This document shows, one piece after another, positions 929 to 47,900 of a stretch of DNA of 64,000 bases. The translations under genes and the position numbers were made by a program. Positions within the stretch are counted from its first letter, which is position 1; the number at the start of each line of letters is the position of its first letter. This DNA is from Anaeromyces robustus (Eukaryota > Neocallimastigomycota > Neocallimastigomycetes > Neocallimastigales > Neocallimastigaceae). The stretch covers positions 18,501-82,500 of the forward strand of contig MCFG01000283.1 of the NCBI GenBank assembly GCA_002104895.1. The letters run 5' to 3'. The notes beneath the pieces are model-generated. The model did no database searches and was not told where the DNA came from. It was given only the letters and a program-made list of their open reading frames with translations.

Positions 929-3900
929 TTAAGACGCCGTCCATGTCTTTTTACCATTATAAATATAATAGGCTACCTTATTTTCATCATAACTAAGTTC
1001 AAATTCATATAGGGTTTTTCCGTCATTACGAATGGCTTCTTTTTCTTCAGCTGGACTATTCTTTGTATAAATTTTATAGGTTTTATCGGTATAACGATAT
1101 TTTGGTGATATATTACACACAGTTTCTAATTAAAATGAAAAAAAAAGAAAAAGGAAAGAAAAGAAAAAAATGATTAATAATAATAAATAATAATAATAAT
1201 AATAATAAATAATAATAATTATTAATAGTAGTAGTAATAATAATAATATTAAGAAAATAGAAAATTGTAATATATAAATAATTATTATATATAAAAAATT
1301 TATATTTATTTATTTACTTATTTATTTATTTTTATTCTTTACCTTTATTTACTATGGCATTTCCTCCATTAATATTAATGACCATATAAGTTAAGACTTT
1401 ATCAATACCAAAGATATTATTTGTTTTATCAATATTAACCATATAATTTACCGTATTTTCTTGGTTTAATTCAACTCCATTATCAGTATCACTTTCTGCA
1501 CCAATTAAACCTAAACATATTTTTATAGATTCTTTTTGAGTTTTACTATCCGTAATTTTAGCAATATCACCAATATGGGGTGTACCACTTGTACAGTCCG
1601 TTCTTGTAATTTTTTCTGCTTTACATATAACATTATTTTTATCTTTCATACATAATATGTAAGGTACATTTTTACCAGCTTCTTTCGTATTTCCTTCATT
1701 CACAAGATAACCAATAGGAATTGTAGAAGCTTCAGTTAACTTTGTACAATCTGATTCCGTACATTCATAAAGATCACCTTCATTACCATGATCACTTTCC
1801 ACTACTAAGGTTTTTGTACCTTTTTGGGCAAGATAATATCCTGGTCTACACTGAGAATTACTTTCTAATGGACATACTATATGGAAATTCATATTTTTTT
1901 TTATTAGTTTAAAGCATTATAATAAAAATATTTAATTGAAAATAAATTAAAATACAATTATACAATTATAAAACTTTTTATTTTTTTTTAAAAAAAAAAA
2001 AAAAAAACTTACTTTCGACACAAGATTTCGAAGTGATATCATCTATTTTTTTACTTGATATTGTATATCTGTATATATTACCATCTACTTTACATTTATC
2101 GTATTCTTCAGTAGGATCAATAGAACCTTTCTTTGTTTTAAGATTGACATAGGTTGTTGCTTCCTCTAAAACAATAGCATTATTTGATTTTTTAAGTAAA
2201 ATACTATATTTTGTACCACCAATTATAACATCACTTGTATCTAATGTAATTGGGAAATAGGTTACTGAATTAACCGCTTCTATTTTACCTCGTTGTCCAG
2301 CTTCTGCTTTTTTACAAACATAAATACCACCTTGACTATCAGAAACAAGTACACCCACGTCAGCATTCGTTCCATCATCACAATCTGTCACTTTAATACT
2401 TGTACTGGATACCTTCTGACAAACGTCGTTTTTACAAGATATAATTGGTTTTGTAGAAGCATCCTTGGCTCCATTAAGATAATAACCTGTACCAGGTGAT
2501 GTAACGGTTATTATGGCATTATCTCCAGATTTTACTAATACTTTAGTTGAACTATCTGTAAATGGTCCATTAGTAGGATTATTAATCAAATAATATCCTT
2601 CATCACTTAACTTAACATTCTTCGTATCATCAGTACAGAAGGTTGTTCCACCTTTTAATAATTTTCCTTCAACACAACTGGTATTACTTGTATAGTAATC
2701 AGTGGCATCATTATTAACTTCTGTACATGCAACCGTACCAGTACATTTTATTATTCTTTTACTTGAATCCCCATTAATATAAAAGCCAGGAATATTACTA
2801 CCAACCGTACAACCATTACTATTACATTTAATTAAGTTCTCAATTTCTTCATTTGGATTTTCATTTAAATAATATTTAATTTCAGAATTACTAGGGTTAT
2901 TTACTGTTGTACATACAGTAGTGGTACATTTAACCAATTTCATATTACCCTTTTCACGATGATCAAGATAATAACCTTTCGATAATCCTGCTATAGGAAT
3001 GTTAAATGCATAAAATTCTTTTTTCAATAATAATTGAGTTCCTGATGTACCTAAATTACTACTTATTAAAATTAAATGATGGTATTGATCAGCTTCCTCA
3101 CCAAATTGTACTTTTTCATCATCATCATTCACTGGACAATAGTAGAATTTTGTACTTCGATAAATATTACCAATGTAGATATCTTCTTTAATTACACTAC
3201 CAACACCAGCGTCTACACAAGATTCTTTAGCAATAGTTTCTGCTGTACATTGTGTTGCGGTACAACTAATTACACCATCCTTAGTCTCTGCCCCATTAAG
3301 ATAATATCCTGGTTTAATAGCTACTGTTTCACAATTAATTCCTTCTGTAACAGCTGCTGCAGTAATTTCTGCTGTTACACCTTCTTCAGTAGGATTAGTT
3401 ACAGTTACCGTATATTCTCTACCTGAATTTATGTCATCTGTAATTGTAAGAGTATTATCTTTATCATCAACTTTGGTACCACCACTTTCTACTATGGTTA
3501 TCCTACCATCACAATCAAATTTAACCGTAACTGAATGACTATCGACTTGGAAAATAGCACTTCCATCAACTGCTACTTTTGCCTTATCTATCAATACACT
3601 ACTTTTATTGACTTCAGCTTCTTCTTCAATTTCAGGTGCATAAATATCTGCCCTTGCATTATAATCATTAGGATTGGTTATAGTTACTTGGTATTCTCTA
3701 CCAGGGTATGAGTCACCATTAATTGTAAATTTATTTTCTGTACCTTCAACTTTGGCACCTCCAGTTACTTCAATGATACGTCCTTTTGGATCGAATATGA
3801 CAGTTATTATTACATCATTGACATTGAATATTGCATTTCCGGCAGTTGATAAAGACGTCCTGGTTGGATTTGGGTCACTTACACTTACTGCCCCTATAAC

Positions 3901-6900
3901 TGCATTAATTCTTGCTGATGGGTTATCTCCAGTAGGATCGTTTACTGTAAATGTATATACTCTATCAGATATTGTATCACCATCAATTGTAAATGTATTA
4001 TCACCAGTTTGTGTACCTCCAGACACAGAAATGATTATTCCATCAATATCATATTCGACGTCTACGATCTTACCATTGACCGTGAATATCGCAATACCGT
4101 TGGTTGCCGATGCCCCGGTTACAGATGTACTAGTTGTTTGAATTGCCGATGCACCTTCTATTCTACCTGCAGTAATTGTTGCTGTTGGTGTATCTCCAGT
4201 AGGATCGTTTACTTCTACTGTATATACTCTTTTTGATTTGTCACCTGTTAATGTAAGTGTATTTCCTTCACCTTTTGTACCGCCAGTTACTTCAGTGATA
4301 CTTCCTTCGGTATCGAATCTAACATTTACATCATTTGGATTTTTTACTGAGAATACTGCACCTCCTAAAACTGCATTCAATGCCTTGTTTGTAGATGTAC
4401 TGAGTACATTAACTGCAGGTACTATTCCTGTACATTTAATAATTTTGTCATTTCCAGAAATATAATAACCATTATTAATTGTTTCAACTAATTGAGCTTT
4501 CCCATTACCAGATTTAATTAAAGATGTTCCAGTACTTCCAAATGCTGTTTCTTCACCATTGTCAATAACATAATATTTCTCTCCCTCTTCACTAAAATCT
4601 ATTTCACTTGAAGAAGTGTCAGCGGTTGAACAGAAATAATAACCTTTATTATTTTTTTTAGCAAGTACTCCAGCGTTGACTCCTGCTCCACATGGTCCTG
4701 AACCAACTATTTCTGTAAATACTCCGTTTTTATATTCTATGACTGTATTTGTAGCATCTCCTTTATTAGGGTAATAATATCCTGATTCAGGTGTAACTTC
4801 CTCAATACATCCGTTACTGTCACATTTGAAAATAAATTTACTTCCTCCCGTATCTTTATTTAAAAGGTAATATCCTTCGGCCATGACTGCTCCTTCACAA
4901 CTTTGTAGATCTGTTGTACAAGTTATTATTTGATTTAAACCTGAACTTAAAAATCTTTCACCATTAGTTATTGAACCTATATTAAGAACTACACCTTTAC
5001 CTACTTTTACTAAAACTTTTACTGTAGCTGCAATTGGACTACCAGTTATTGGGTTTGTCGTAACACCATTTATAATATAATAAGATTCCACTTCACTACT
5101 CAGTGGAACAGGAACAAATTTATCACTTCCATTTTTTACACAAATACTAATACCACTTTGACTTTTAATCATATCACATGGATTTGAACATGGAGTTAAA
5201 GCTACAGTAGCCTCTTCACATTTATTTATTCCATCACATTTAATATATTTTCCTGGATCGGCTGCATCTACATAAAAAGCAGGTTTATCACTACTATCAA
5301 TACTATTTATCGTACAAACATCACCAACACATGATTTTACCTCAACTAACGTATCTGTCTTTGTTGTTCCTCCAGCATTTAAATAATAACCTTCAGTGGA
5401 AACTAATAATGCTTTTTTTCCTCCTACTTTGGCTAAAATCTCCTTTCCTTCACTAGGAGCTGTTCCAGTTCCTATTAAAGCTGAAGAATGACCATTACTA
5501 ACGGTAACTAAATAATACTTTTCACCTTGACTAATATCATACCATTGGTCATTAGTATCTGTATAACATAACTTAATATCCGATCCAGCTTTTCCAATAT
5601 TACCTCCATATTTAGCAGAACATACTCCAGTCGTTACTACAACTGATTCACATTTAGAACCATCACATCCAATTACTGAATCTGTTGAAGTATCAGTACC
5701 ACCAATATAATATCCTTTTATGGCTTTTAATACACTGCAATTAGAACCACTTTTACAATAAATAACAGTACCTTCTTTACCTCCATTAGCATAATATTCA
5801 TTTGCAGTAGTATCAATAAGTTCAAAATCACTTGCACCATCTTTATCTCTAATCAATTTAGTATTATCAGAAGTCTTATAACAAAAATCAACAGTATTTG
5901 GTGTTGTCTTACTCGATATCATCTTCACTATCGCATTATTACCTGGTTTTACTACAACTTTTTTCGTATTTGAAGCAGCAACACTTTTTGTAAACTTATT
6001 ATTAACAGCTCCAGAAGCAGGAGCAGTTACTGTTAACAAATTAAAGGTTTGACTTCCATCCTCAGTTACTTCTGTACTAATACTAACACTACTATTTGAC
6101 GCATTTATACAAAATTTAGTAATACCGTTACTATCATCATATAAAAGTTTACCAATATCACTAGCAGAAGAACAAGCTGTTACCACATCAACATTTGTAT
6201 CAGCAGTTGCTGTACAACTACCATTTTCATTACAATAAAAAAATGGATGCTCTTTAGCATCTTCACCTGCATTAAGATAATAGCCTAAGGAAGGTGAATT
6301 GACATCTTCACATCCCTTACTATTACATTTAATTAAAGCATTCGCACCAGAAATATAATATCCATTTGCAGGACTTCCCACATAAATAATAGAAGTTTGA
6401 GTTGTTTTCAATAAAATCTTTTTTTCTTCTCCTTCCTTCTCGCACCGGTAATATCAAATGGGAATCCTTCACTATATTTAATCTCTACTACTTTATATTT
6501 GTTAACACCATCTGCAGCAAAAGTTATTTCATCATTTGCTTTTCCTGTACAAATTGTAGTAAATGCACTAGTTTGAAGTTTACCTCCCTCACCACTACTA
6601 CATATTACACCACCAGTCATTTTTTCGCATCCTTTATCATTTTCACATTTATAAGTTTCACCTGATATTTTATAATAACCACTTCCTGGTACAATAGTAT
6701 TACAATTTTCAGTGGTTTCACAATAAATTACGGTACACCCATCGCCTGAGTTAATGTAATAGGTATTATCGGCACCGTTATCTTCTTCACAATCACTTCC
6801 ATTGGTAGTACATTTAATTAATGGCTTAGTTTTTTCCTTTCCATCATTCATATAATATGTTAAAGCAGCAGTAGATTCTGGTCTACATTGACCACCACGA

Positions 6901-8835
6901 CATTTAATTAATTTTGAGGTAGTACCTTCGGTAATAGTAACAGCTTCATCATTTATATAATAACCATCGACATTTTGTAATTCAACGGCATTTTCGCTTA
7001 AGTAAACAAAAATTTTTTTCGTTTCATCTTCTAATACATAAGGACCAGTAAATGCAGTGTATTTATTTTTAGCTATAGTTACATAGTAATTACTTGGCGT
7101 AGTTAATGCAATAAGAGTACCATCTTTACAAAATTCATAGTCTTGATTAGTAGTATGATAAATGATATCACCAGACGCTTCAGCCGTACAAGTTGTACCA
7201 CTAGTAATTTCATTAATTTTATTCGAAGGTATTTTTTCACAATTTCCTTTCCAACATTTAATTACAGGATAAAGATTTTTATCGGAATCACTAGTACTTC
7301 CATTATCCTCAAAATTTAAATAATAACCAGTCGGTTCATTTACTACAGTAATAACACCACCCCTTTCAAATTTTACAAGTAATTTTTGATCTGAAGTAGA
7401 AGCATTTTCCCCCAAGAAATAACTACTTTTATTCTTGGATATATTAAGAAGGAAATATTGAGTTCCGGTTCCAGCAACTACATCTAATTTAGTTTTATTA
7501 TCTAAAGTGGGACAGAAATAGGTGTGTCCACCAAATTGTGCTATATTTCCAATACCAGCTTCACCACATGTTGTTGGTATTTGTAAGGTATCAAGTCCTA
7601 CACAAGTCCTACCATTACAACCAAAATATGGAATACGACTTTTATTCCATCCGGCATTGGGATATAAACCTGGGATTGGATTTTCCGTTTTACAATCCCC
7701 ACTTACACTTTTTATAATAGGATTCGCAGTAGCATCAGGACCAGAATTCAAGAAATAGCCAGTACCTGGATCAGGAACTATAGATACAGCAGCATTACCA
7801 TATTTAAGTAATACAGTTGTTCCTTCCGTTGAATCGTAAGGCAATCCACCTTGAACGTTCAATACCATATATTTTTCCTCCGTTATGTCTTCAAGATCAA
7901 TCGCTGTTCCGGAACTACTTGGACAAAAACTCTTAACGGTATTTCCATTAGCTGTCCTGATAACCCCACCAGATAAAGCTTTTTCACAACTTGATTTAAT
8001 CATTGTATCCACTTTTGCCACCATAACCGTCTTTGCACCTGAATCATGATAATTTTTTATAATAGGGTAAGCCGCTTTATTTATTGAATTATTATTAATA
8101 AAGAAACCATATTGTGCCGTAGGGACTACGGTTACAGATCCTTTACCCATTCTTAATAAAACAGAAGTACTTGCACCGAAAGGAGTAGAGGCTGCACTAC
8201 TTCCTGTTGTTATATAGTAATATCCATATTTATCAACTTTAAAATCACTTTTATACGTACCTGAGCTACCAGTACATATATATTGTGGATTATCTCCAGT
8301 AAGAAGCATACCTTCTTTATTTGTACCACATGCTGTCACGACTTCCGTATCTTCTGTACTACTATTTATAATTGAACAAGTAGAAGAAGCACATCTAATA
8401 ATTTTATTGGTATCATTAGTATCACCATTAATATAATAACCATTAGCAGGAGATGCTATGACTTCACAATATTCTCCTTCACATTTTATTAATTTATTAC
8501 CTTTTGCATTTTTAAAGTAACCATTTGCAGTTTCAACAGTATCACATACAACAGTAGACGATCCGCCATCAGGAGTCACAGTACCACACCTAATAAGTGG
8601 TTCACTACTTCCTGAATTTATATAATAATTTTTATCAGCTACAGTCACTTTACTACAGGTCCCTCCGGTACATTCTAATACACCTCCATTATATAAGACA
8701 AAACCTGTTATAATAGCTCTTGTACATGGTATTACACCATCATTGACTGAATATTTCATAATTATACTATCGCTAGAACATGTAGTATAATCTGTTACAA
8801 AAGTTGAAGTTGATTTTACAAATTATTATTAATTC

Positions 8836-25468: not shown

Positions 25469-25675
25469 TTAATATTGAATTAAGAAAGCAAAAACAAATA
25501 GTATTATATAGAAAGTAATTGAAGGTATTTTATGAATTAATGAAAGGGCACCACTTGGTGCTTGAGTTGGTGTAGAGGTTGGTTTAGAGGTTTCAGATGA
25601 TTTAGTAGGAGGTGCTGATGTTTCTTGAGCTGTAGTTGGAGTTGGTCTTGGTTGGTAAGAGGTGGTGTGTTCAGT
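25469..25675 (-). other. C-terminal stalk and GPI-like anchor signal of the large scaffoldin
   Basis: A stretch rich in Pro, Thr and Ser (PTPTTAQETSAPPTKSSE and following) leads to SGALS, a short polar spacer, then the hydrophobic IPSITFYIILFVFAFLIQY and the stop. Small residues before a terminal hydrophobic tail fit a GPI-attachment signal. A plain C-terminal transmembrane helix is the alternative. Either places the scaffoldin at the cell surface. Confidence 0.75.
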
Positions 25676-28600
25676 ATTTGGTTCAACCAACATATTTGGA
25701 TCCAATTTACCTTTTTCCTCTTCATCACATTCATAATAATCTTCTCCTTTCTTAATGTATGATCCACTTTCACATATACTACTTTCTGGATCTGGATCAA
25801 TATATCTACTTTCTTCATCTTCACCAGTAGAACATATATATACATCCTTACTTTCACCATCTTCAAGTTTAATGGTAATTGGATCTCCTGGACATTCCAT
25901 TACTCTACATTTAACATTCTTTGGTTCATCATTTTCTGTTTCATTGTCATTAGCATCAGCACTTTCAGTTTCAGCTTCTCCATTAACTTCATTGGCTTGT
26001 ACATTATATTCTTTAAATCTCTTTTGCTTTCTCTTTCTAAGATCTGGATCTTCCAAATCTTTGTCAGGTACATATTCTTCTTCCTCTTCTTCTTCTTCTA
26101 CTTCAACACATTCATATACTAAATCATTTGGTTCAGATATGAAGTAACCTTCCTTGTCAACCTTTTCACATTCTAATTTATCTTGTTCTTCTGTGGCTGT
26201 ACATTCCATTAATTCATCATCGATGTAATAATAGCCTCCTTCTGTAGCTTGTGTACATACAATTTCATCCTTATCATTCTTTACACAAGCAACTACTTCA
26301 CCATCAGTAGTCATCTTACTACCTTCTTTATCAATATTCTTACAGGTTATTTCTTCATTGTTATCTAATTCACATTCTACATAACTTCCATCATCTAACT
26401 TGTAAACACCTGGTTCAGTAATGTTTTCAATTCCACTAGTATTTCCTTCGCTTTCTTCTCCTTCATCTTCTTCTTCTTCGAAACTATCAACATTACCTTC
26501 ATCTTCATTTTCTTCTCCATTAGCTTCATTACCTTCTCCTTCTCCTTCTTCATCACCCTTTTCAGTATTCTCTTCTTTTTCTTCTTCTTCTTCACCACCT
26601 TCTTCTTCTTGACGCTTTCTTAAATCTCTTCTTGATCCATCATACTTTACAACAACGAAATGATTATCGGTCATAGTAGTGTAATCAATGTAATATCTCA
26701 CACCTTCTGGTTCTATTTGATAACAATCTCCCTTCTTACTACATATGTAACCAACAGTACCTTCCTTTTCATAATCCTTTCTTCTAGTAACAGCATGTCC
26801 TTCCTTAGTAATGAAGTAATAACCATCTAATAATTGAACAACGGAATCATCATTCAATCTATATAATTTATTATTAACAATCTTATAGGTATCAACTGTC
26901 TTTTCAGTGGCAACACATTCATTATTATCTTCGCCTACTAAGTACAATACATTAGATGATAAACATACATCACCAGCATTTAATTCACCATCCTCAACTA
27001 CACATCTTTGTCCATTTTCACTAACTTCAACATTACATTCTCTTTCAATAGTAAAGGCCTTATCTTCTTCACCTGTGAATTGAGCAATAGCGTATGGGTC
27101 TGGAGCACGGTTAAGATAACTACCGACTTCAGGTTTAACACTTTCACAACTACCACCATTATCACATTTAATAAGTTTGGTATTAACTAAGTCTTCAGAA
27201 TCTAAAGCTCTTTCCTTTGTGACATCAATAGCGTAGTAACCTTCTTCACTTACTGTATAGATTTCCTTTTCTTTTACCATTATTAATTTTTGTTTACCAT
27301 TATCGTAATAAACTGGGGTTTCATCACTACCTACTTTACATAGTTTAATTTCATTGTTTTCACCACTAAGTCCATTAATTATATAGAATTTACCATCGGA
27401 TATACAATAATCACCAATATTAAATATTACACTTTCATTAGCACAACTTCCTCCATCCTTATTATAAGTACAAGTAACACTCTTAATACTATAAGATTCA
27501 CCATCATATACAACATAAGTATTTTTATTAGCAATATTTATATAAATTCCACTTTCTAACTCAATCTTTTCAATACTTCCATCTTCATTCATTAGAAGAA
27601 TATTATTTTCATCTACACTATTACTTGCTGCTCTACCTTCAGAGTTAAATACATACAAACCAATTTCGGTAACCTTCTTCAACTTCTTGCCGTCTTTATC
27701 ATATTCAAATATCTTACCATCTGAAAGGAATCTTTCACCAGTAGTTAATACAGCAGAATCAACACTACAACTACTTCCATCACAGACGTATATTAAAACA
27801 TTTTCACCACTTTCTTCAACTAATTTATTATTCTGATTAACCATATAATATCCTGGTTTAACCAATGTTACATATTCACCATTAAATTTAACAAGTTTAC
27901 TTACAGCAGTTCCATTTAATTTACCTCCAATTTTATCAGATGTTAAATATAATGGTGATTCAGCAGCAGCACTTAAACAATTTCCTGTTTCAATAGCTGA
28001 AGTTGCAGTTTCCGTAATTAAATACATCTTATTTCCAACTTCTTTACCATCCTTATTATAACAATAATTACCTGCTTCAATAGTTTCTTCTTCGGTAAAT
28101 GTCTTACAGTTACTTGTACCATCCTTATTTTCAGTAACCTTGCATGTTACAATTTCACCGGCATTCCATGAACTACCATCATTGGTTATAACACTCTTAA
28201 CATTTCCTCCCTTATTAACGTATATACCTGGTGAATTACTTTGCGTAATATCATTTTGAATTAATACTCCATTAACATTCAAAACTTCAAAGGCACTTAT
28301 AACAGTATCCTTAGCAACTACTGCCTTTTGCTTATTATTAATGAAGAAGTATCCTTCTTCCATTTCGACTGCCCATTTATCAACATCTACATTCTTAATT
28401 AATGGTAATTTCTCTGCCAACTTATTTACATATCTATTACCAACATCAATTTTGTCACTATTTACTAATTCACATGACTTTCCATTACAACTATATAATT
28501 CTCCTTCAACTTCTTCATTACTTTCTAATGGAATACCTGTTGATTTATCTAATAAAACATATCCATTTACATTTACAACTGATATTTGATCATTTTTAAC

Positions 28601-31600
28601 TCGTAAAAGTTGTTTATCTTTCTCAATATAGGCGTATGCATTTCTTCCAACACTACTTACAGACTTATAACTATATTCACCATCACGTTTAGCTAATTCT
28701 GATTCGCCTTTAATAATTACAATTTGTTTATTATCAATACATATATCACCACTTTCCATTGGTTCACTTGAAGTAACAGTTATTCCATCCTCTTCAACAG
28801 TACAAGTTGGAACTGAAACTGGTTTTTGCCATACTCCTTTCATCTCAACAATAATAGCTTCACTTGGATTACTTTGACTTACATATTTACCATCACTAAC
28901 ATTTTCCATAATGTTTACAATTTCCATTCCTTCCTTTCTTACTTCAAAAGCATAGGCAACTTCCTTTCCTACTGATACAGACTTTCCATTTTCATTAAAG
29001 AAGTAATATCCATCTTTTGAAGTTTTAACCCATGTAGATTTTTCACTATCATAGTATAATATAACAGGAATCTCTTTATTATCATTAGCAAAATTCATAT
29101 AATATTTACTCTTTAAACTCTTAGTAATACCGCATTTTCCTTCTTTGCATGAATAGGCAATAGCTCTATTTTCTTTCTTATTATCATAAATCTTTCCATA
29201 CAAATCTACTACATATATACCTGACTTTTCGATACGGTTATAACTATCCTTACTAAGTGCATATAAACTATCATCTACAAGATAATAATATATTCCATCA
29301 TCGGTACTGAACATACAATTATTATTATCATCAGATTTCTGTGAAATTTCTACCTTTGGAATACAAATACCTCTACTACTTTCATAACAAAATTCTTGTG
29401 GTTCAATCAATTCACGAATTTCGTAGGATTTACATCCTTTTCTTCCTGTTACAACAACATTATCTACTGCTAGTTCAGCATCTTCCCATTTATCATTAGT
29501 ATTTTCAACCATTAATCCTTTAAATACATAAAATCCAGATTTTTTAATTCCTTCTGTAACATCGTTAACATTACCATTTACTATTTGAAGTACTTTATTA
29601 ACTCTATTATCCGCTTTGTTAATACCATATCCATCTTCAAAGAAGAAGTAATAACCATCATCCTTTACTATTTTCCATAATTTAGTTCCTGAATTATATT
29701 CTAATACATTTTCTTTTCCATTAGATTTATTAACCATTACATTTCTCTTCTTAAATTCTTCCAATTTTTGAACATTACATGGTAAACTCTTTCCATCGTA
29801 ATAGCATACTTCATATTGCGCAGTATTTAAATTCTCTTCAACAGTATTTATAAATGGTTCAAATACATTGCCATTCTTTTTCATAGCATATATTCCTTCG
29901 TCAACTTCATCTAACTCTCTTGTTAATTTTTTATATAATTTATTATCAATTATAACAAATACATTTTCTATTTTATTACTATTTTTTATCTTAAGAAATT
30001 TATTTCCACTATCATATTCAATTATACCACTGACTATTTTCTTTAATCCTAGAGTAATTTCACCTTCTTTAGCGAAATTAATATATATATTCTTCATGTT
30101 AATATCATCTTCTGTTAATGTTTTTAATTCACCGTCTTTCGTTAATTCATATAATTTACTGTATCTTTCATCACCATTTACACTACCATCTTCATTAAAT
30201 AAATAATATCCGGGTTGATCAACATTCATGAACTTTTTACTTAATTTATTATATTTCAATAATTGATTATTACCATTTCCAGCTCCATTAATTATAACAT
30301 CTGATTCAACATTTATTATCTCCTTTTCTGCACAATTACCATTTCCACATTCAATTACCTTATATGGAATTTCATATATATCACTACTAAATCCTTCCAT
30401 TTTATCATTTAACACAAATATACCACTTTTCATTCCTTGTACTGAAAGTCCATCCAGTCTATATAAATTAGATCCACTCATGTAATACTTAACAGCATCT
30501 ACTCCACCAGTATGACATAACTTCTTAGTAACTGACTCTTCTCCACTCTCTTGTACACTTACTTCAACAATATACAACTTTTTGGTATTTCCTGATAATG
30601 TGTAGCAAATATCATTATCGGTTAATGTAACTTCTTCACTATCTCCATCACAAGTCTCATCATTATTTACTTTACATTTTTTAATATCAGTATTAATTGT
30701 ATAAGATCCTTCATAGTTATTAACAACAACAATCTCATTATTACTATCTGTTACTGCACTATTTATATATTTACCATTGTTAACAGCATTACCATATCCA
30801 TCAAATACTCCAGTATCTGGTATTTCTTCCTTTATATTTGCTGCAACATTTTTACTGTTAAAGAAGTAATAACCACTACTACTTTCTTTCATCCATTTAT
30901 TTCCTTTACCATAGTATACACCATTACTTCCTATATTATCATTAGCATAATAATAAGCATCTTCTCCTGAATAACTACTACATTCATATATATCAGTTTC
31001 TTTCATCTCATTAGTATCTGGATTCTCCTCCATTCTGTAACCACATAAATATGCTCCTTTGGAATTTCCTTTAAGTTCCGTTTGTACAGTTAAATTAAAT
31101 GGTTTATTCTTTTCTCCAATTATATAATAACCAATATATGGATTATTATCATTACCTCCGTCAGTAAACATTAACATTTCATTCTTTTCAACTCTTACAA
31201 TACTATTATATACATATCCACCTGAAAATTCTACATCATCTAAATTAACGTAACTTGTTCCTTCATCATATTTTACACAATTTTCAGATGAAGCATTTTC
31301 AGAAATTGGACTTATAGCTAAATATAAACCACTGTATTCACCATCACTGACTATACATGGAGAACCTACCGGAATAATTTCTCCTTCTTGTACATTAATA
31401 CATTTATTCTTTTCATTAACTATACATTTATTTAATACACTCTTAATTCTTGAATTTCCTCCTGAACTTCCAGTTGCTCTTTTTCTTCTAGCACTACCTT
31501 CTTCTTCTTGTTCTTCCTTTATTGGAATACTCATTGATTGAATTACCACACCTTCATCATTTATACTTGCTTTATTCCAGTATATACCTATATTACTGAA

Positions 31601-34600
31601 AGTCTTTACCACATCACTTATTACTTTCCAACTATCACCTTTCTGATACACCGTAATTTCAGTTTTCTTATCAAGCGTAACATTTTGAGTATTTCTGTAT
31701 GGAATAAGATTAATTTCTTCTTCACTTTTTTCAAATATATAATAACCTTCATCTTCAACCCAATCTACCGTTTGTTTTCCACTATTCAACATAAGCATTA
31801 CTTTACTCTTAGGGTCAAAGTTAGATTGCAATAAATGATATTTATTATCTGAAATTGAATAATGACTTTTCTTTTCATCATCGTCATTAACTGGATTTCT
31901 AGTTACATAATTACTTACATCATATCTGGATTTATAGAATTTAACCTCATCATCATAAACAACATATATCAATTCACCCTTACTGATACTTTCTGAGAGC
32001 GTACATTGTTTTGTATTATTATTATTTATTACACAACGACGTTTAATAACATCCCATGACTTTTGAGATCCATCATATTTAATTAATTTTTCCGTTGAAG
32101 CTTTATTAATATAGACTTTATTTATTTGAGGTTTTAATATTTCCTCACAATTTTGCTTCTTACATTCATACATTCTAGTCTTTTTCAATTCCACACTTTT
32201 TTCAACACCATTATGAGTTTCAGTATTAAATATATAATACCCTATATTATTTTCAAATATACTTACAATTGAATCTTCACTAAATTTAATTAAATCATCT
32301 CTCTCTTTATGACCAAGGAATTTAGATTTTTTATATTTGTAGAAGTAATCCTTTCCATCATTAGCTATACATTTACCCTTATCTCCTGCTTTTATAAAGT
32401 TCTCTACATATATTAATTTATTTTCATTACTCTTTCCAGAACGGTAACAATAACTGTTTCTTAATAAATTATCTTCTGATTTACATACTCCTTCTTTACT
32501 ATTATATTCACAAGCTACAACGCTTTCCTCTTTACATACAAACTTTTCTGTTCCACGTATACATTTTATAATTAATCCTTCATTACCTCCATCTACATAA
32601 TATCCTTCCATACCATTCTCCTCATCTAATACCTTACAATCACCACTATCATAACACTTTATTAAGTTATTAAATGCAGAATTTAAATAATAACCTTTTC
32701 TTTCTTTTACTATACTTAATTTATTATTCTTAGAATTACATTTATATAACTTATCATAAGTTAATTCATTATTATCATTCTTATAAAACATATATTCATC
32801 CTTTCCATTAACTCCACAACTAGTCTTCAATTTACATTCTTTATTACATACATATAATTTCAAATTCGATTTTCCACTTATATCAATTTCTTTATCATCT
32901 TCTAATTCAACAACTCTATCAGCTTCATTAACAATATAAATACCATCACTATATTTATATATTTCATTACTACTAGTAATTTCATACAATTTTTTATTAG
33001 CAACTTTTATTAAACTATCTCCTTCATCTTTAACATCTTCACCACTATTCATTTTTTTATACAGATATGGTGTACAACTACCTTCACTTGAAGTTGTCAA
33101 ATTTTCCAATGCAAGGTAAATTCTATTTTCTGTTATACATACCTCTCCACTATTTACATTTTCCGTTAATGCTTTACATTTACCACTTTGGAAATCATAG
33201 GTACATGCACTTGCAACTTTTGACACACAATTTCCTTCATTACAACTAATTATATATTCAGAAGCAGTATTATAATCATCTTTCAATATTTTATTTAATT
33301 TTTTATTATTATTTATTACTTCACCATTTAATGAATTAATAACAACACCTTGTCCATTACCACCAATATTCATATATGAATATTTATCAACTGCATATGC
33401 ATTACCATTAACATTATAATAATAAGTGCTTACATCTGCTTCACTTGGCATTTGAACACAATTTTCAACATCAATACCTGTATTTATTTCTTTCAATGCT
33501 AAATATTTATTTGTAGAACTTACACAAATACCACCCGCATCTACTTTAATTTCTTCAAGTTTTGCCTTATATTTCTCATCTTCATAAGATATATAACAAT
33601 TATTTGGTTTATATTCACTTAATTGTCTACAATTCAATAATTCATTATTTACTATACTCCATTTCATTACACCATTTTTATCTTTCTTGTATTGATACAA
33701 CACATTATTTCCATTTTCATCTTGTGCATTTTTATTATAATAATAACCTTCATAATTTACTTCAATACATTTATTATCTTTACATTTGTAAGCTTTTTTT
33801 ACATTAACATTATCTACTGTACTTATTATCTTGTTATTAGTATCTAACAATATAATTCCATCACTTTTATCAACTATCCAATTATCATTACAGGATGATC
33901 CTTCCGTACATGGACTTGTCATCATCACATTACTAACACTGTCAAGTACTGTAATACCTCCACTTGTTTCTTTTTCACATTTTCCTGTACTCTTACAGTT
34001 AAACATTATATCATCAATGTAATAATAGCCTTCTTTATTAACAACACTAATTTCATTTGATGAAATTTCAACTAAATTATATCCTGCCTCAGAAACAGGG
34101 AAATCATCAGTAGTAGATGATATTTTAAGAATTCCATATTTTTTACCACTACTTTTAATGAAATCAACAGCTTCTACTTTATCTGAAGTATGATCAACTT
34201 TTGATAAACAAAATTTATAATTTCCAGTATTATCTACATTAATTTCACCTGGCTTTTCATTACTACATTGACTTACTGTTTCTTTTGTGTAAGACACACA
34301 ATTAGCACTACTTCCTCCTTTACATTTTATTAATTTATATATTGTTTTATTTGTATATTCTTCATTTTTATATATATTATCATTTGCCTCATTATTAACA
34401 TATAAACCATATCTTGGAGAACTTTCTTCATAACATCCAAATTCTTTATTACAATTTATTAATTTTCCATTTCCACTAATATACCATCCTTCTTTATAAT
34501 CTTTTTCAAAACAAACAACTTTCTTTCCAGCTGAATTAGTAAATTTACCTTCTTTCTCTTCTCCGGGTTGAACACATTGAATTAATGGTTTTTCTTTATT

Positions 34601-37600
34601 CCAATTTGCGTAGAATCCTTCCTTAACATTTTTATCTGTCATAGTACATTTCATTTTACTTTCACCAGAATCAGAACTTCCACTTTCTGTTTCACATAAA
34701 ATTAAATTATTCGGCTCACCACTACTAATATCCTTCATAATATACCAATTTTCTTCAGGATTTGTACTAACTTTACATCCACTTTGAGCAGTACATCTAT
34801 ATAAGTTACCTTCTTCAGATTTACCTCCAACATTACTACCAGCTGTTGTTATAACACGTCTACCATATTTTTCATCATTGACAACAACAAATGTATCCAT
34901 ATCAACCCATGTTACTGAATTACTACTAATAGAAGTAATTATTTCAATATTAGTTGTTTTTACTTTAAATCCTGGGAAATCTTTTGTATTAGATACATTC
35001 ATAATCATCGCATACTTTTCAGAAATACCTTTAATACCGACTTGCTTATCGCTTCTTACACATACTTTTAATTCTTCATTATTATATATAAGTATTCCAC
35101 TATTTTGACAAGTCTTACTTTCTACAGCTTCCATCAAATTACATTTATTACTTTCTTTAGTGTTGTCACAGCTTATATACTTATTATTTTCATAATTATC
35201 ACTGAAATACCATCCACTGTTAATATTTTCCATTAATTTACATTGTACAGTTTCAGTAGTACCAATATACTTTTCTTTTTCACATTTGTACATATTTCCA
35301 GAACCATTTACATTTTCAACTATATTATCTCCATTACGTAAAATATATCCTTCTTTTGTATATTGAGTTAAAGTAGTTCCTGTATATTTTACAATAATAT
35401 TAACAACTACTTCGTCATTTGCTTCTTCATCTGGAATTGTAATACCAGCAAATTTATCACCTCTTCCTAAACTTAGCATATAATAATTAACACTTGAAGA
35501 TTCTTTTATTTCAATTGGACTATTAGTTCCCTTAACATTACAGAATTTATATTTACCATCTTTCTTTACTACATTTCCTAGTTTGCTACAGCTATCATCA
35601 ACTATATATGCTATATAACATTTATTTGCTTTACATAATATCATACTTTCATCAACTGCATTAACAAAATATCCATTTGATTTAGTTTCTTGTACAATAC
35701 AATTTCCTTTCAATTCATCACATAAATATAACTTGTCTCCAGCATAATCATTATTCTTTGCTGAACTTCCTTCCAACATTTTGTTATCAGAACCCAATAA
35801 ATAGTAACCTTTTCCTTTAAATATAACATAATAATCTAATCCTGCTTCAACTAAAAATGAACTTTTATTTTCAGATCCAGGGAAAACATTAGATTTATTA
35901 ATGTAGTAGTACAATCTATTACTATCGCCACCACCACTTTTACTTTCATCATATTGCAAATTACCACTACTAATATCACCTATACTTACACTACCTGGTG
36001 TTTCATACTTCTCACAACCATCAGCTCCACACTTAACAATACTATCACCCAATTTTTTATATCCTACACCTACTTTACAACTACCTTTTATACAATAATA
36101 CATTTCAGTACTTGGTCCAACATTATCTACATTTGTTATCAAACTATTTCCATCAATTAATATTACTGAATTTCCTTCAGTAAATGCTTTTTCACTATTT
36201 TCTGCATCTTTTCCTTTATAAATAGTTATATCTTCACCTTGTACTAAAGTACAATAGCTATTTACTGGGAGTACTATATCCTCTTCTCCTACAGTAATTT
36301 TACATTGAACACTACTTCCATTTTTACAATTATTAGTACATACTGAAGATTCAACATTTCCACCTACTCCACCAATATTACCTATACCTATAACAGAATT
36401 ACTCATAACTACAACATAATCCTTGTTATTTGGGAATTTATTATTAGAAGATAGACTTATTTTTTTACCAACATTATTTTTAAGAGAAATAAGTGTTTTA
36501 GAATAGCAAAGAGAATACTCATTACTACTAGTATCATATATTAAATCTCCATCATTATTGTTACCACATGAATTAGATAACTCTTTTACAACAACACAAC
36601 TACCATTACTACATTTTATTCCTTTATATTCAGTATCACCATTAACATACCACCCATCTTTGATATCTTCTTCTTTTATGCATTTTCCATATGATTCATT
36701 ACATTTCAATAATACTTTCATCTCCTTTACTTCATCTTCTTCAGCTAACCTATTTTCATATTCATTCAATAATACATAATTATTTACTTTGAATTGGACA
36801 AAAGAATTTTCATCTCTAATCATTAAATTATTATCTTTATATATAAATTCTCCATTATCAATACTATCAAATTTCTCACTTATATATTCTATCTCAGTTG
36901 CTTCACTAACTTCACCACATGTACCATCTTCACATTTAATAAATTTACCATCATCTTCAGAACTATACCATCCATTATTTTTTTCCAATATCACACAGTT
37001 ACTATCACTACTTGTACATTGATATAATTTATTATCAGCATGACTTGATGACGCAATAGCATTTCCAGTGGCTAATAAAATAAACTTATCCGATACCAAT
37101 TTTGATATAACATATACATTATTTGCTCCAATTTTTTCAATACCCACTAATATTCTATCACCTGTTGATGCCTCAGGGAAATTACCATCAATAAATAATT
37201 CAATAGGATAATATTTATCTTCACTTATATCTACAGCTCCAGAACTAACATCACTTTTACATAATTTAATATTTTTATTAGCATCCAAAATAAGACTACC
37301 TGCACCTTCATTTTCACAACTTGTTCCCTCAATAGATTTCATTTCCTCACATTCTGACTTCATACATTTTGAAAATACCTTTGTTGAAACATTTACAATA
37401 TAACCATTAGTTAAATGCCATTTTCCATTACCTACTTTTGTATAAATTGAACTACCAATACGTTTTTCTTTCATATTTTCTATATTAATCTTTCTATAAG
37501 TTATATCAAACATTTTCACATCAGTACTAGTATCAACAGTATTGACATTATAACACTTCAAATAAGTTTTTGGACTTGTTGGGTTTGAATTATCAGTATA

Positions 37601-40600
37601 TGTATCATATATATATATATCTCCTTTATAAATACAATGTTGACCCTGTAATAAGTATAATGAATTGTCACTTCTAATACAGTTCAACGTAATTGGATTT
37701 ATATATGGATCATTTGTTGATAAACTTGGTTTACATTCTGGAATCATAGCAACTTCACTCTCTGCTTTTGTAACTTCACATTTTTCATTAGTACATTTTA
37801 TTAATGCATCTTCAATACCTGTTCCTGCAGCATTTTCATACATATTTCCTTCTACTGCATCTATAAAAATACAAGAAGTTCCCTGGCTACCCCCTGTTAC
37901 TTTATAACATTTTACTACAGCATTTATTTTTTTACCAGATTGTATTGTGTTCAAATAATATTTATCATCCTCGACAACAATTCTTTTACATTTACCTTCA
38001 ATACATGAATAAGCATTTGAAATTGTACTATCATCTGATGATAATACTACATTATCCCCATCAGTAAATATATTTCTACTATCATTTATTTCTGTCAGAG
38101 ATACATAGTTCAATTCATATATCACTATATCATCACTATCACTTCCTGTAGCACGTCTTCTCTTTCCAGTGTTAATCTTACTAACTACCTTATTATGCGA
38201 TGGATCAGACTTATAAGTTCCATATTTAATGTTAGCTGTACCTGTTTCTCTTTCAATTACACATGAAGTTTTCGGTTCACAACTTCCATCTTTACATTCA
38301 ATACAACCACTTCCTTTTTTTGCATACCAACCATTTTTAATTTCATCTAAAACAATAACTTTACTATCATCGTCACTTCTTTTTACAGATGCCTTAGCTA
38401 CAATCTTAGTTGGTACACCTTCATCTGTAACATCATATCCATATATAAGTTCTTCCGCCAATTCTCTTTCAATACATTGTCCATCTATTTTACATTCATA
38501 TTTAAAATCTTCCTTTGGTATAAATAAAGAAACCAGTTCGGCTTCTCCTGATTTAATATTATATTTGAAATATCCTGCATTTGTTTCAAAATCATATTTA
38601 ATTTTTTCGTCTTTTCCACTTACACTAATTTCTATATCACCAGCTGTAGTTATTGTTGTTGTACCTTTAACTAATGTATATTTATCACTCTGTTGTTTAA
38701 CTGCCGTCACACTTAAACATACTGAACCAGCTTCTGTACTTGTTGTACATTTTGCTAATTCTTCAACTTCTTCTTTGAATAATAATGAATATTTACTTAT
38801 ATTAACCATTACATATCTTCCCTTTACACCTGGGAAATTCTTTGATTTAAGAACGTATACTTTTTCAGACGTTAATTCTTCAAAATTAAATGTAGTACTA
38901 AGATCTCCATTTTGACATAAATAAACACCGTTTTTAAATCCAACATTCTCACTTCCACATTTTGTATCAGTATTAGTAAGAGTGTAATAACTACATTTTT
39001 TATTTTCACATCTTATAATTTTTTCACTATCAATTGGAGGTTTAAAATTGAAATAAAATCCATCTACGATATCATCTTGTGAAATAATAGTACAATATCC
39101 ATTACTATCATTACTACATTTATATAATTTTTCCTTATATCTATCATAATAATAACCATTAGTATTAACTTGAGCTAATGATAAACCATTACCAGATGCT
39201 TTTTTTAATATAACATAAGTATCAGAAGCTACATATCCGTCAGGCAAAACAATATCTTTATCAAAATCAGTTATAGCGGCTACTACATATGTCTGCTGAG
39301 AAGTATCTCTAATTGACACTATTTCTTCACCATTACACCATACAATATCACCATAATATGTTGAAAATTTTCCATTAGCTAAAGAACATTCATCAACTGA
39401 AACGTCAATTAAAGAACAACTACTTTCACTTGTACATTTAATAATCTTTTTTCCTACATCATCATCTTCATGTACATACCATCCCTTCGTACTTACTTTA
39501 CCTTTTTCAAAATTACTATTAGTACTACTAATAACCCGAATTAATGGATATTCATAATTACTATAACTATCTCCATTGATATAATATCCTTTTCCCAATT
39601 GTTCATTCATATACTCTTTACATACTACGTTGTCATTTTCACTATAACATTTAATTAAATTTCCTTCTCCTTCTTTTGATAAATACCATGAATCAACTCC
39701 TGGATCTTTAATTAATATTAATTTACTATTAATATCACTATATATTAATTTACTATTTTCACCATCAACATAATAAGCTTCAACTTCTGGTTCTTCCTCC
39801 GTACAACCACTTAATGTACAAACAATTAACTTTTTACCATCTTCTTTTACTCCAGCATTAATATATGTACCTACTTTTGTAACTTCCTCATTACATTCAA
39901 ATGATTTACTACCATCAATTGTACACTTAATTAAACCTTTTCCACTTTGAACAGCATTTGCATACCATCCTTCTGATGGTTTACTATCTGATTCACATAA
40001 CTTCGTTGTTCCATCACAATATACTAATTTTTTATCTGGTTCTCCACTTAAGTAATATCCGGTTACCATATCAATTTCTTCACAAAGTTTACCGGTACAC
40101 TTTAATAATGCATTTACAACGTTTGTACTTTCAACTACCTTTCTAAGGTATACACCATCATTTATATCTTCAATATCAACAGAAATACACATTACTTTAC
40201 CTAATGATTTTTCACATTTTATTAAAGGTTTTGATCTATCTTGACTTATATAATAACCTTCTTTAACTTCAGTATTTTTTTCACATGACACTGTAGCTCC
40301 ACTACTAGTACATTGAATGATACCTTCATTACTTCCTTTTGGTAAAACATAATATCCTGCAGTTACAATTTGTTGTTTACATACACTTTCAAAACCTTCA
40401 AAAGTACTATCACATTTTGCATCTTCAGCACATGAATATAAATTATTATTGGTTAAACAATTAATTTCAGTATCACGTTCTTTACCTATACAGGTAGGAC
40501 CTTCGCCATCTCTTTTACTAACAGCTTCGTCGTCACATTGAATTATTTGGAAATTGACAACAGTATTTATATCAGCATTATTATATATACCAGCAACATT

Positions 40601-43600
40601 TCCACCTTCACATCCGGCGGTAGAACATTTATATAAATTACCTGCTTTATTTCCTTCAGTTAATAATATTCCATTTTCATCGGTAATGTAATATTCAATA
40701 CTAGTTGGTGTTACTTCAACAATTTTATTACTTTCAACACTAATTAATATATCACCAGAACTACCAGGGAAATAACTAAGATTTTTAATATGTTTACCTG
40801 AAGTATTTAATGTTGCATTTTCATCAAGACATAAAGTCAAATCACCACTACCTTTTTTAATTTTACCTGCACTGCCATCTTCATTACAATCAGCAGCAGA
40901 ATCTTTTTCAGAACATCCAGTACCTTTAGTACATTCTATATATTTATTTTCATCTGAACTTCTATAATAACCACTAGCAACTTTACTTTTAATAATAATA
41001 TTTTTATTACTGTCAATAAGATTACTACCATAACTATCTACATAATAATTTCCTTCTACTACTTCTAATCCTTCACAACTTTTTTGATCTTCATCTTCAC
41101 CTTCTTTTTTTTCTCTGTAAGTACATTTAATTAGACTTCCACTGACTACATTATCTTGTAAAATACGATTATTATTATCAATTAAATATACGTTTGTTCC
41201 ATATTGAGATTGTGTAAACATTTCTAATTTATTACATTTATTTCCACTCACAGTACAATCAATAACTTTTTTACCCAATCCATCTATATATTTGGAAGAA
41301 ACTGCGTCAATTTCTTCACATGAATTTTGTGCTTCACAATAAATAAGTTTTTTATTTCCGTTTTCGTTAACATATAAAGTTTTTACCGATGCAGCATCGG
41401 TAACCCACTTATATACGATTGTTTTTGTGCCTTCTGCACTTGTAATTTCTACACCTTTAACGGTAATTAATGGTTTATCTTCTTTATCACTTCCAGCATT
41501 TAAATAATATTTATTTCCAATATCAGATTGTAAAGGATTATCAGTCGATTCACCAGCGCCACACTGTGAAGCAGTACAAATAATTAAACCTTTATCACTT
41601 CCATAAAGATATACGCCTCTACCAATACCACTTTCCATATTACAACTGACACCACTACAATTAATCAAATCAAATTTATAATTACTACTGGAACCTGAAC
41701 TTACTGGATAATAATTTGCACCTTTTTGAATTTTAAATTTAGCATCAGTACCACCACTACTTTTTGCACTAATGACATAAGTTCTATCACCACCATAAAT
41801 AACATGGAATAATCCATTTTTTCCTACATAATCCGATCTACTTAAATAAGTACATTTTTTACTTCCATCACAATAGATTATATAATCTTCTGAATAATAA
41901 TAATAATCAAATTCATTTGCAGTAACTTTATTACAATTAGAAGTATCAAGTTCCGTAGCATCATCTCTTTTAACACAATTTATTACATCAGAATCATTAC
42001 TAACACTTATATAACCTTTTTTACTTACAGTATTAAATTTTATATATTCATCTGTAACTTTATTAGTATCTTTATCAACAACTTGACCAATTTGAAGTTC
42101 ATAATATCTTTGACCTTCAATAAAACCAATACTTTGATTGTCCAAACCATATAAATATTCATGACTTTCAAATTTAATTCCTTTAGAATTAACACATAAT
42201 CCTACGGATTCTTCTCCATTATCATCACTAATTTTAACTAAATTACCATCAGTACTACATATATCAGTAGTAGGTTCAGCTCTTAAATTACATTTAACTT
42301 TTTTAACTTTAATATTGTTATAAGTTTTTCCTCCTATAGTTATTTCGACATTTTCATTTTGAGTTTCATCAATTTTTATATTTTTTATTTTACAGATAAT
42401 ATATGGGAAATCCGTCGAAGTCAATCCATCATGATTCATATAAATACCAGCAACTTCTGTAACTGTAGTAGAGGATCCAGCACCATCATAATAAACAATA
42501 TAACCATCGGTAGTAGTATCAGTTACAGTCTTACCATCATCATCAATAAAGTAATATCCTTTATCCGTTGCAGCATCTTTATAATTATTTTAAATAAAAA
42601 TTAAAATTAAAATAAAATATTAATACTTAAATATAATTCTTATTTGTTAAATTTTATTTTTATAAATAATTACAAATATAAATATAAATTTTAATTTATT
42701 ACAATTAGTTGCTGAAGGTACAAATTTTTGGGAAGTCGGTGTCTTAGTAGGAGTTTCAACATATGTATAAGTATAAGAAGGATTGAATTTCAAATTGGAT
42801 ACTTTATTAAATAATAAATATATATTAATAAAATAATTAATATTAATAATTTTTTATCCTTTAAAAAAACCTTTATTTTATTTATTCATTATATATTTTT
42901 TGATGATTTTTGATTTAAATAATTTAATTTATATATATTATTTATAATATTATTATTATTATTATTATTTTTGCATACCTGAACAAACACTTGGTGATCC
43001 ATTACAATTTACTCTTCCACCATCCATTAAGATACCAGATTTGTCATAGTCCTTATCATAAATTATATAATTGCTGGTAATATCTACTGGATAGTATTTT
43101 TGAGCTGTCCTACCAAAAATACTACCTTCAACTGCTTTAACAAATTTTTTAACAGGATCACTACCGACAAATCTTTGTGATTCATTTTCATCAAGACATA
43201 ATACAGCATTATAATTTGAATTAATTAATTTACCGGCATTATCACTATCACATTCCATACCTTCAGTAGTTGGTAATTGAATAAGTTGACAACCAACGTC
43301 ATCATTAATATCCTTACATTCAATAACATATTGATAAGAATCTTTGATTTGACCAGAACTAACACTAATTTTACTAAGTGCTAAACGATAGTAACCAACA
43401 GATGGTTCTTCAATAACTTCACAAGTTCTTTTATCACCACTAACATTAAAAAGTGTTAAATATTTGTTACCAGTAGCATCTGTACCTAAATGATAACCGT
43501 TATTGTTGCTATTACATTTTGCTGATGCACTACAAGAAGCATCTACGAAAGTAGTTTTTGCAGTTACAGTTATTTCACAGGGATCAGCACTAATATTAGT

Positions 43601-44976
43601 TTTACTACCGTTTTCTTGAGAAGTTCCAATACAACTACCATTCATACAAGTAATATATTTACCAGAACTATTTTCGGTATCACAAAAGTCCTCAAATCTC
43701 GTAATTAATTTACCATCCTTATTGACACATTGATCCTCTAATTAAAAAAATTTTATATAATAAAATAAATTTAATTAATATATCAATTACAATACAATAA
43801 TTAATTTTAATTTTTTTTTTGAAATAAAAATTACTATTATTAATCATAACAATACTTTATTAATTATTATTAATTAATAATTAATTATTATTTACTATTA
43901 TTAATTATTATTATTATTATTATTATAGAAATATTTTTTAAAAAAAAATACCTCTTCTCGTATAAGTAGGATCGAATGTAATAGAAGCACCATCAGATTT
44001 TACAACGAAATAATCAACAGCGTTATTAAAATTAAAAATGTTACCATTATTCTTAACAAGATAATTTCCTTCAGTAATATCAATATTTAAATATCCAACT
44101 GAACCTGATTTAAAAGCACCTAAACATAATCTATATTCAGGAACAGGATCAGATCTTGATTTGGTACTAGAAGTGTCTAAAAATTTATAAAGACTACCAG
44201 CTTTACTATCATTACAAGTAGATTCTGTTAATTCACCCATAAATTTACATTCACCATTGGCATTACAGGATATAAATTCAACAATATCATTAGTATCGTC
44301 TTTATAAGCGTGTTTATAATAACCTGGTACAGGATTATTAAATAATCTAGAATTACTTGATGTTGTTTTGTCAAAATAATACAATTTTCCTGTTTTTCCT
44401 GTAGCAACAACTGTTGTTAAATCATCACCCAATAAATAAAATCCTGTAACACCTATTATTTTATAAATTTATATTTATATAAAATTTTTTAATAAATATT
44501 GTTGTTAAAAAATTTAATAATTTTAATTATTGAAAAAAAACTTACAATTTGGTTGTGTCACTGGGGGTGTTGCTTTATCATCAGTCACGAGTTTATATTT
44601 TCCATAATCATTACCATCTTTTTCAAAACTACATGTACGAACTATTAAAATTTTAAATTATTTTATTAATTGATATTTAAAAATGAAAAAAAAAAAGTTA
44701 ATAACATAACATATTTTAAAAATAAAGAGAAAATAAAATATATATATTATTAAATTTTAATAATAAATCTGTATTTACCAACTACTTCTGCTCCTCTAAC
44801 GAAATTATTAATAAGACCTACCAGTAAGGGCAGGCTAAATCATTATTATAATAATTTATATATATATAGATTATTAATTAAAAATATTAAATAAGTTATT
44901 GCTTTTACCTTTTTAAAATTAATATATAATCTAATAAACGACTATGAACTTACCTTAAATATTTAAAATTAACCAT
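25469..44976 (-). CDS. scaA: Giant ScaA-type scaffoldin, about 6,213 residues, seven exons, cell-surface anchored
   Basis: Exons on the minus strand: 44976-44954, 44834-44779, 44641-44546, 44452-43952, 43737-42979, 42801-42703 and 42576-25469. The spliced length is 18,642 nt with no frame break. Intron 1 is phase 2; all others are phase 1 and 93-214 bp long. The protein starts MVNFKYLSLPLLVGLINNFV then RGA, with signal cleavage likely after Ala23. Several thousand residues of GYY/GWY..LIKC...C repeats follow, interspersed with FP..VLVK-type blocks. Near the end come an acidic Glu-rich segment (about 5,835-5,895), a Pro/Thr/Ser stalk (about 6,145-6,185) and a hydrophobic tail (SITFYIILFVFAFLIQY) after small residues SGALS, as in GPI-anchored proteins. 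Fungal scaffoldins of this size and layout bind dockerins of plant-cell-wall-degrading enzymes outside the cell. Which repeats bind is not shown by sequence. Exon 7 alone is 17.1 kb without an intron. Confidence 0.88.
26440..26640 (-). other. Acidic Glu/Asp/Gly-rich segment in the large scaffoldin
   Basis: Directly after a dibasic site (DLRKRQ) comes a run of about 55 residues dominated by Glu, with Gly, Asn and Asp. The Cys-containing repeats resume afterwards. Its charge sets it apart from the array. It may act as a disordered spacer or calcium-binding surface; that is inference. Confidence 0.75.
42703..42801 (-). other. 99-bp Pro/Thr-rich cassette exon of the large scaffoldin
   Basis: The 33-codon exon, between AAAG and GTAATA splice sites, encodes a linker-like segment with YVETPTKTPTSQKFVPSATN. 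Both flanking introns are phase 1, so including or skipping it keeps the frame (G joined to AT gives Asp if skipped, T joined to AT gives Tyr if included). Its composition resembles the Pro/Thr stalk at the C-terminus of the same protein and differs from the surrounding repeats. Likely a flexible, O-glycosylated spacer, possibly alternatively spliced. Confidence 0.65.
44779..44976 (-). other. Signal-peptide exons of the large scaffoldin
   Basis: Exon 1 (44976-44954) encodes MVNFKYL and stops at AG before GTAAGT. Exon 2 (44834-44779) follows a GATTTAG acceptor and gives LPLLVGLINNFVRGAEVV, ending GTT G before GTAAAT. The joined segment has a basic N-region, a hydrophobic core and an R-G-A cleavage site. 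Neither exon forms an ORF long enough to be found on its own; they were located through phase agreement and the match to the first scaffoldin gene. Confidence 0.75.
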
Positions 44977-47440: not shown

Positions 47441-47900
47441 TTCAACCCTGTAAAAATTATTTTTAACAGATAAAGGAGGGGTCTTGTAACAATCATCAAT
47501 TTCTTCAACCCTGTAAAATTTTTTTTAACAGATAAAGGGGGGTCTTGTAACAATCATCAATTTCTTCAACCCTGTAAAATTTTTTTTAACAGATAAAGGG
47601 GGGTCTTGTAACAATCATCAATTTGTTCAACCCTGTAAAATTTTTTTTAACAGATAAAGGGGGGTCTTGTAACAATTATTTTGTTCAACCCTGTAAATTT
47701 TTTTTAACAGATAAAGGGGTCTTGTAACAATCATCACTTTGTTCAATCCTATAAATTTCTTTTTAACAGATAAAGGGGCCATGTAATAATTTGTTCAACC
47801 CTGTAAATTTTTTTTTTAACAGATAAAGGGGTCTTGTAACAATTACTTTGTTCAATCCTGTAAATTTTTTTTTTAACAGATAAAGGGGTCTTGTAACAAC
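47441..47900 (+). repeat. Minisatellite, eight copies of a 52-63 bp unit
   Basis: Units start at 47441, 47504, 47565, 47626, 47684, 47742, 47794 and 47851. Each contains TTCAACCCTGTAAA, a T run, TTTAACAGATAAAGGGG and TCTTGTAACAA, usually followed by TCATCA. Early copies are nearly identical. Later copies shorten by losing the TCATCAATTTC end and by varying the T run. The G4-6 block stands out in this AT-rich DNA. Confidence 0.92.

Follow-up and report, generated by a model that had tools for sequence, protein, structure and literature searches.

The DNA analysed here, a stretch of 64,000 nucleotides from the genome of the anaerobic gut fungus Anaeromyces robustus (hereafter the window), carries on its reverse strand a gene for a very large protein, the giant, which is likely to be a scaffoldin and which has a sister gene elsewhere in the same genome. 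Coordinates refer to positions in the window and residue numbers to the predicted protein of the giant. The gene extends from 44976 to 25469 on the reverse strand, and its seven exons (Table 1) join into 18,642 nucleotides of one frame with a single terminal stop, encoding 6,213 residues with a predicted mass of 691.5 kDa and an isoelectric point of 4.74. All six introns start with GT and end with AG, span 93–214 nucleotides and have a G+C content of 5–13%. The last exon is open over 5,702 codons (stop included), compared to 124 codons for the longest frame found in 200 mononucleotide shuffles.

Table 1. Exons and segments of the giant gene and the neighbouring gene in the window.
Feature	Position	Strand	Remarks
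Exon 1, 23 nucleotides	44954..44976	-	ATG and first part of the predicted signal peptide (MVNFKYL); sister exon likewise 23 nucleotides (MINFKHI)
Exon 2, 56 nucleotides	44779..44834	-	Remainder of the predicted signal peptide; 50 nucleotides in the sister; the cores of the two genes read LLFLVGLL and LPLLVGLI
Exon 3, 96 nucleotides	44546..44641	-	Phase 1-1; aligned Cys codon split by intron 3 in giant and sister
Exon 4, 501 nucleotides	43952..44452	-	Phase 1-1; N-terminal domain, no Pfam family
Exon 5, 759 nucleotides	42979..43737	-	Phase 1-1; no Pfam family
Exon 6, 99 nucleotides	42703..42801	-	Phase 1-1; Thr/Pro-rich linker; poorly conserved
Exon 7, 17,108 nucleotides	25469..42576	-	Includes the stop codon
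Stretch with 10 of the 13 canonical repeats, residues 868-2111	37778..41509	-	Family consensus GYYINSGNDDNTKKLIKCDNNNSC; AlphaFold2 model of residues 1249-1457
Seven strong copies of a Cys-containing beta unit of about 210 residues (five long, two shorter), residues 4478-5835	26606..30679	-	Profile and AlphaFold2 model
Hydrophobic C-terminal tail, residues 6189-6213	25472..25546	-	Follows a Ser/Thr/Pro-rich stretch; similar tail in the sister; putative membrane or GPI-type anchor signal
Neighbouring scaffoldin-type gene, two adjacent frames (783 and 1,477 residues)	1978..8759	-	Repeat and frame matches

Searches of the host genome (70.2 Mb in 769 contigs) with pieces of the giant of 800 and 600 residues (expectation value E ≤ 1e-5 and 1e-4) have, besides the window, identified one relative for each piece, both residing in the same frame of 5,611 residues on contig C228, with identities of 38% and 43%. 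The sister gene at this site contains exons of 23, 50, 90, 489, 744, 81 and 16,835 nucleotides, which add up to 18,312 nucleotides and encode 6,103 residues. The phase is equal at six of six introns in the same order, with exons 3 to 6 all being of phase 1-1. In the alignment of the full-length proteins, which comprises 5,801 aligned residues at 45% identity, 217 of the 224 cysteines of the giant face a cysteine in the sister, as do 22 of its 27 tryptophans a tryptophan, and four of the six introns share a column, the remaining two being offset in variable, poorly conserved stretches (intron 2 by three and intron 5 by five columns). The boundaries of the sister gene were chosen by eye with the model of the window in mind rather than predicted blindly, and we find them convincing because intron phases, a similar signal peptide, cysteines and flanking residues agree. 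Intron 4 of the sister is longer than its counterpart (462 compared to 214 nucleotides) because it harbours a long array of TATAAA-type hexanucleotides (L009, C228:27598-28059). When used as query against the host genome, exon 4 found counted matches at E ≤ 1 exclusively in the two giant genes, that in the sister being its own exon 4, and one further row (E=0.69), located in exon 7 of the sister, was left uncounted.

Since the sister displays seven exons with equal phase at every intron, the gene model is strongly supported. The proposal from a previous sequence-only reading of seven exons encoding an unbroken protein of 6,213 residues is thus borne out, including the four upstream exons of 23, 56, 96 and 99 nucleotides, for which the sister contains counterparts of 23, 50, 90 and 81 nucleotides with matching phases. 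If the upstream exons were wrongly assigned, translation would instead start within exon 7 and the protein would not be secreted. Exons of 23–99 nucleotides are difficult to establish unless transcripts are available, exon 6 shows little conservation and the hydrophobic core at the N-terminus is modest, but a sister of 45% identity with the same number of exons, equal phases, an aligned split cysteine codon and a similar, even more hydrophobic N-terminal core makes such an error very improbable. Judged from the comparison of the two sequences, the predicted seven-exon model is right and is now backed by a second gene.

Both ends of the protein carry hydrophobic segments. In hydropathy windows, no other stretch of the giant comes close to the C-terminal tail; the N-terminal core ranks second when averaging over 8 or 10 residues, and in the sister the equivalent core outranks all internal windows at each of the four lengths applied (8, 10, 12 and 17 residues). 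The C-terminus had previously been read as similar to a glycosylphosphatidylinositol (GPI) signal; its hydrophobic character is confirmed and preserved in the sister, and it is from this hydrophobic end, which no further residues follow, that the GPI label derives. A search of the open-licence literature yielded no paper combining Neocallimastigomycetes, GPI and scaffoldin, and passages of one review describe the published anchor as a membrane-spanning helix (PMC6690862). Close to the C-terminus, two kexin-like dibasic sites are kept in the sister, AKRD (28688-28690, residue 5141) and DLRKR (26615-26617, residue 5832). The dipeptide RR is about four times commoner in the giant than expected (8 observed versus 1.9), and only two of the 22 [KR]R sites are conserved between both proteins. 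Proteolytic processing near the C-terminus is, from these sequence features, possible.

A segment of 210 residues encompassing six repeats (residues 1249-1458) retrieved 92 matches in the host genome up to E=10. The 26 rows at E ≤ 1e-3 correspond to 23 distinct open frames, counted by hand, which range from 450 to 5,706 residues and include the giant and its sister. The giant thus belongs to a large family within its genome that resembles published fungal scaffoldins. A repeat profile with the consensus GYYINSGNDDNTKKLIKCDNNNSC, for which 101 repeat seeds were drawn from other loci, detects 13 copies of at least 5 bits in the giant and 13 in the sister, compared to a single copy in 50 shuffled versions of the giant. 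The seeds originate from loci L016-L043, with both giants excluded and with parts of C229, C286, C611 and the neighbouring gene in the window (L027) included, and the counts for frames of these four loci are consequently biased upward. Among 12 frames of at least 800 residues with at least five regular-expression motifs, from which the C51 frame and a 968-residue C611 frame (1 motif) were left out, both giants contain 2.1 canonical repeats per 1,000 residues compared to 3.9–23.3 in the ten others, with a value of 11.1 for the C518 frame, which is not part of the training set. The richest frame compared is located at C229:12267-24347 on the reverse strand (L047, L048), where 4,027 residues hold 94 canonical repeats (23 per 1,000), although parts of this frame were used in training; it is perhaps the better source of a cohesin repeat for structural work. 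The same frame is matched by residues 1201-1400 of the giant at E=7e-32. When the giant was divided into 30 segments of 200 residues and the three best matches listed for each, 14 segments had a match in another family frame that surpassed the best of the shuffled controls (E 0.003), among the matches listed.

Much of the C-terminal third of the giant is made of beta units of about 210 residues. When these same units supply the profile, the seven strong copies score 113–202 bits, weaker matches of 11–37 bits lie at residues 3867, 3636, 4228, 468, 2727 and 3415, and no shuffled protein scores above 4.1 bits. The highest score in another family frame is 27.3 bits, on C518, and the unit therefore has relatives in the remaining family without being characteristic of it. 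For each of 37 segments of 150 residues, taken from residue 600 onwards, the highest score falls on the collinear part of the sister (17.6–197 bits), and matches between segments within the giant do not exceed 22.5 bits. The array thus predates the split between giant and sister and has hardly been rearranged since. A recent tandem expansion of repeats was considered and rejected, as all 37 segments are closer to their counterpart in the sister than to the rest of the giant.

Structure predictions with AlphaFold2 returned models that consist nearly entirely of beta-strands for both types of segment. Residues 1249-1457, predicted from an alignment of 26 rows, show a mean predicted local distance difference test score (pLDDT) of 73.3, with block means of 82–94 over the first 110 residues and values below 50 for positions 127-163 of the modelled piece. 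The unit at residues 5322-5545, predicted from 14 rows, reached a mean pLDDT of 86.4 and a predicted template-modelling (TM) score of 0.77. A search of PDB structures with both models found no clear match. For the unit 5322-5545, the first 14 Foldseek rows from the PDB are choline-binding, glucan-binding or clostridial repeat-domain proteins, including CbpJ, LytB, CbpF, dextransucrase and alternansucrase, at E-values of 1.5e-3 to 1.3e-2 and with low TM-scores. This likeness between a predicted model and solved structures is a lead only. It would fit a protein in which the units of about 210 residues form a carbohydrate-binding beta-hairpin solenoid that, in the manner of bacterial choline- or glucan-binding repeats, holds polysaccharides of plant or fungal walls, which we regard as quite unlikely.

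The host genome bears the marks of an anaerobic gut fungus and is rich in dockerin-bearing frames. The fungal dockerin PF02013 was detected in at least 150 matches (all 150 of those scored, from 683 candidates) and GH48 in eight matches, with neither being found in any of 14 control genomes, and C24 and C579 each carry a GH48 match with a dockerin match after it, the frames of the two matches being equal in length. Conversely, a profile search for the bacterial cohesin PF00963 found no match in the host genome and was positive in one of the 14 controls, and neither a cohesin domain nor any other Pfam family above cut-off was identified in four pieces of exon 7 or in exons 4 and 5. A piece of 800 residues of the giant found no match in plasmids searched in protein mode, and when the last 1,201 residues were scanned against prokaryote genomes, none of the 580 pattern hits was confirmed as a relative.

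Taken together, we assign a probability of about 0.7 to the giant being a secreted, surface-anchored scaffold protein of approximately 690 kDa from the fungal scaffoldin family, where the family identity is likely and the function is deduced from it. The assignment to a scaffoldin of an anaerobic fungal cellulosome by the sequence-only reading remains the best one, in line with the dockerins, the GH48-dockerin frames, the lack of PF00963 matches and the large family of long frames that share the repeat, and is weakened by the giant being poor in the canonical repeat: the repeats quoted in its favour exist, but the profile recovers only 13, and residues 868-2111 contain 10 of these. Several observations weigh against our assignment. 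The two giants have the lowest density of canonical repeats among the 12 frames compared, which is among the reasons why the scaffoldin reading is likely rather than proven. Moreover, 16 of the 30 segments of the giant match other family frames no better than the best shuffled control, among the matches listed. Finally, the N-terminal hydrophobic core of the giant is modest by hydropathy, and when averaging over 12 or 17 residues a single internal window (at residue 2566) equals or exceeds it, so that the earlier description as a textbook signal peptide appears a little strong for a core that is nonetheless present and kept in the sister.

The scarcity of canonical repeats and their concentration at residues 868-2111, a unit profile that was trained on the two giants and scores strongly nowhere else, and an exon 4 domain confined to them would also be expected from a surface protein of scaffoldin descent that no longer docks enzymes or never did, and that, composed mostly of non-canonical units, serves as structural coat or adhesin on rhizoids or zoospores. 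Since each giant has kept 13 recognizable canonical repeats and since the sequence family and the organism suit a cellulosome, we consider such a role unlikely, albeit less so than the binding of wall polysaccharides. In the scaffoldin that we favour, the signal peptide would direct export and the C-terminal tail would hold the protein on the membrane or the wall. The GYY...LIKC...C repeats in the N-terminal third would provide docking sites for dockerin-bearing enzymes, GH48 among them. The long array of beta units towards the C-terminus, held by disulfides, could form a rigid stalk by which these sites are kept at a distance from the cell.

The window contains a second gene of scaffoldin type, which is found by the query of residues 1249-1458 in a frame of 804 residues at 3e-5 (as one of the 23) and in its other frame, of 1,491 residues, at 0.005. 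Its two adjacent frames of 783 and 1,477 residues match residues 29-808 (78% identity) followed by 811-1855 (67%) of an uninterrupted frame of 4,054 residues on C286, with an additional match (57%) between the latter portion of the second frame and the C-terminal end of this relative. Broken where the C286 relative is whole, the neighbouring gene is either a pseudogene or affected by an assembly error. Other elements include the remnant of a retrotransposon of the long interspersed nuclear element type, whose endonuclease and reverse transcriptase domains occupy separate frames that overlap (20796-23411, reverse strand), a fragment of a Ty3-type element with a reverse-transcriptase RNase H domain (52952-53737, reverse strand), which also weakly matches an integrase zinc-binding domain below cut-off, and a frame with BspA-type leucine-rich repeats that begins at 63549-63998 on the forward strand and continues past the edge of the window. 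Minisatellite arrays are located at 47438-47899 (61 bp x 7.9) and 47957-48111 (51 bp x 3.0), with units that contain G and C, unlike the simple AT repeats nearby.

On fungal scaffoldins, passages of published studies report 23-101 scaffoldins and 234-632 dockerin proteins in each gut-fungal genome (PMC12341934, which also names a profile cohesin3.hmm), tabulate scaffoldin counts of 14-93 (PMC8665504) and make use of 319 scaffoldin proteins from UniProt (PMC10978972). As described in passages of PMC8262932, fungal scaffoldins that are large (>500 kDa), rich in repeats and free of homology to bacteria bind dockerin with a dissociation constant of 994 nM, the conserved cohesin domain is still elusive and the manner in which scaffoldins are attached could not be shown. 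By the same passages, both the anchoring of fungal cellulosomes to the cell and the identity of the fungal cohesin are still open. With a sound model of the largest scaffold-type frame that we have seen, its sister and bounded segments with AlphaFold2 models, both questions become testable with small recombinant pieces. A more tentative proposal, to which we attach a low likelihood, is that the two giants form a separate class of anchoring scaffoldins, in which a short N-terminal docking segment is followed by a very long disulfide-braced beta stalk, including the units of about 210 residues without clear solved relative, that is fixed to the surface at its C-terminus and whose layout has been frozen since before the split of the genes. 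If this were true, the positions of the array would not be interchangeable repeats but would each serve a distinct purpose.

Compared to known systems, the giant would share with the scaffoldins of bacteria a non-catalytic nature, many docking modules and its position at the cell surface, but it differs in that no cohesin domain was found in four pieces of its exon 7, in exons 4 and 5 or, by profile search, in the genome. The choline- and glucan-binding beta-hairpin repeat proteins, which its GYYxxN-type repeats presumably resemble, have in common with it the predicted beta-strand repeats and provide the top but weak Foldseek rows. The closest parallel concerns the ScaA-type scaffoldins, which are reportedly found in Neocallimastigomycota and to which the giant was compared by parts of their published description and not by sequence. 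As in these proteins, its size is very large (691.5 kDa, exceeding the 500 kDa named for the group), it is repeat-rich, no bacterial cohesin relatives were found in our searches, its hydrophobic C-terminal tail may act as an anchor, and it belongs to a numerous family, with members of mixed size, in the genome of a host of like kind with dockerin-bearing enzymes. By the same partial description, it differs from ScaA-type proteins by its few canonical repeats, and by the private N-terminal domain of exon 4 and the unit array, strong only in the two giants, that it shares with its sister. Scaffoldins of this size class are already in print, as seen in the passages of PMC8262932, and it is the frozen layout of two genes and the C-terminal array of units that may be novel.

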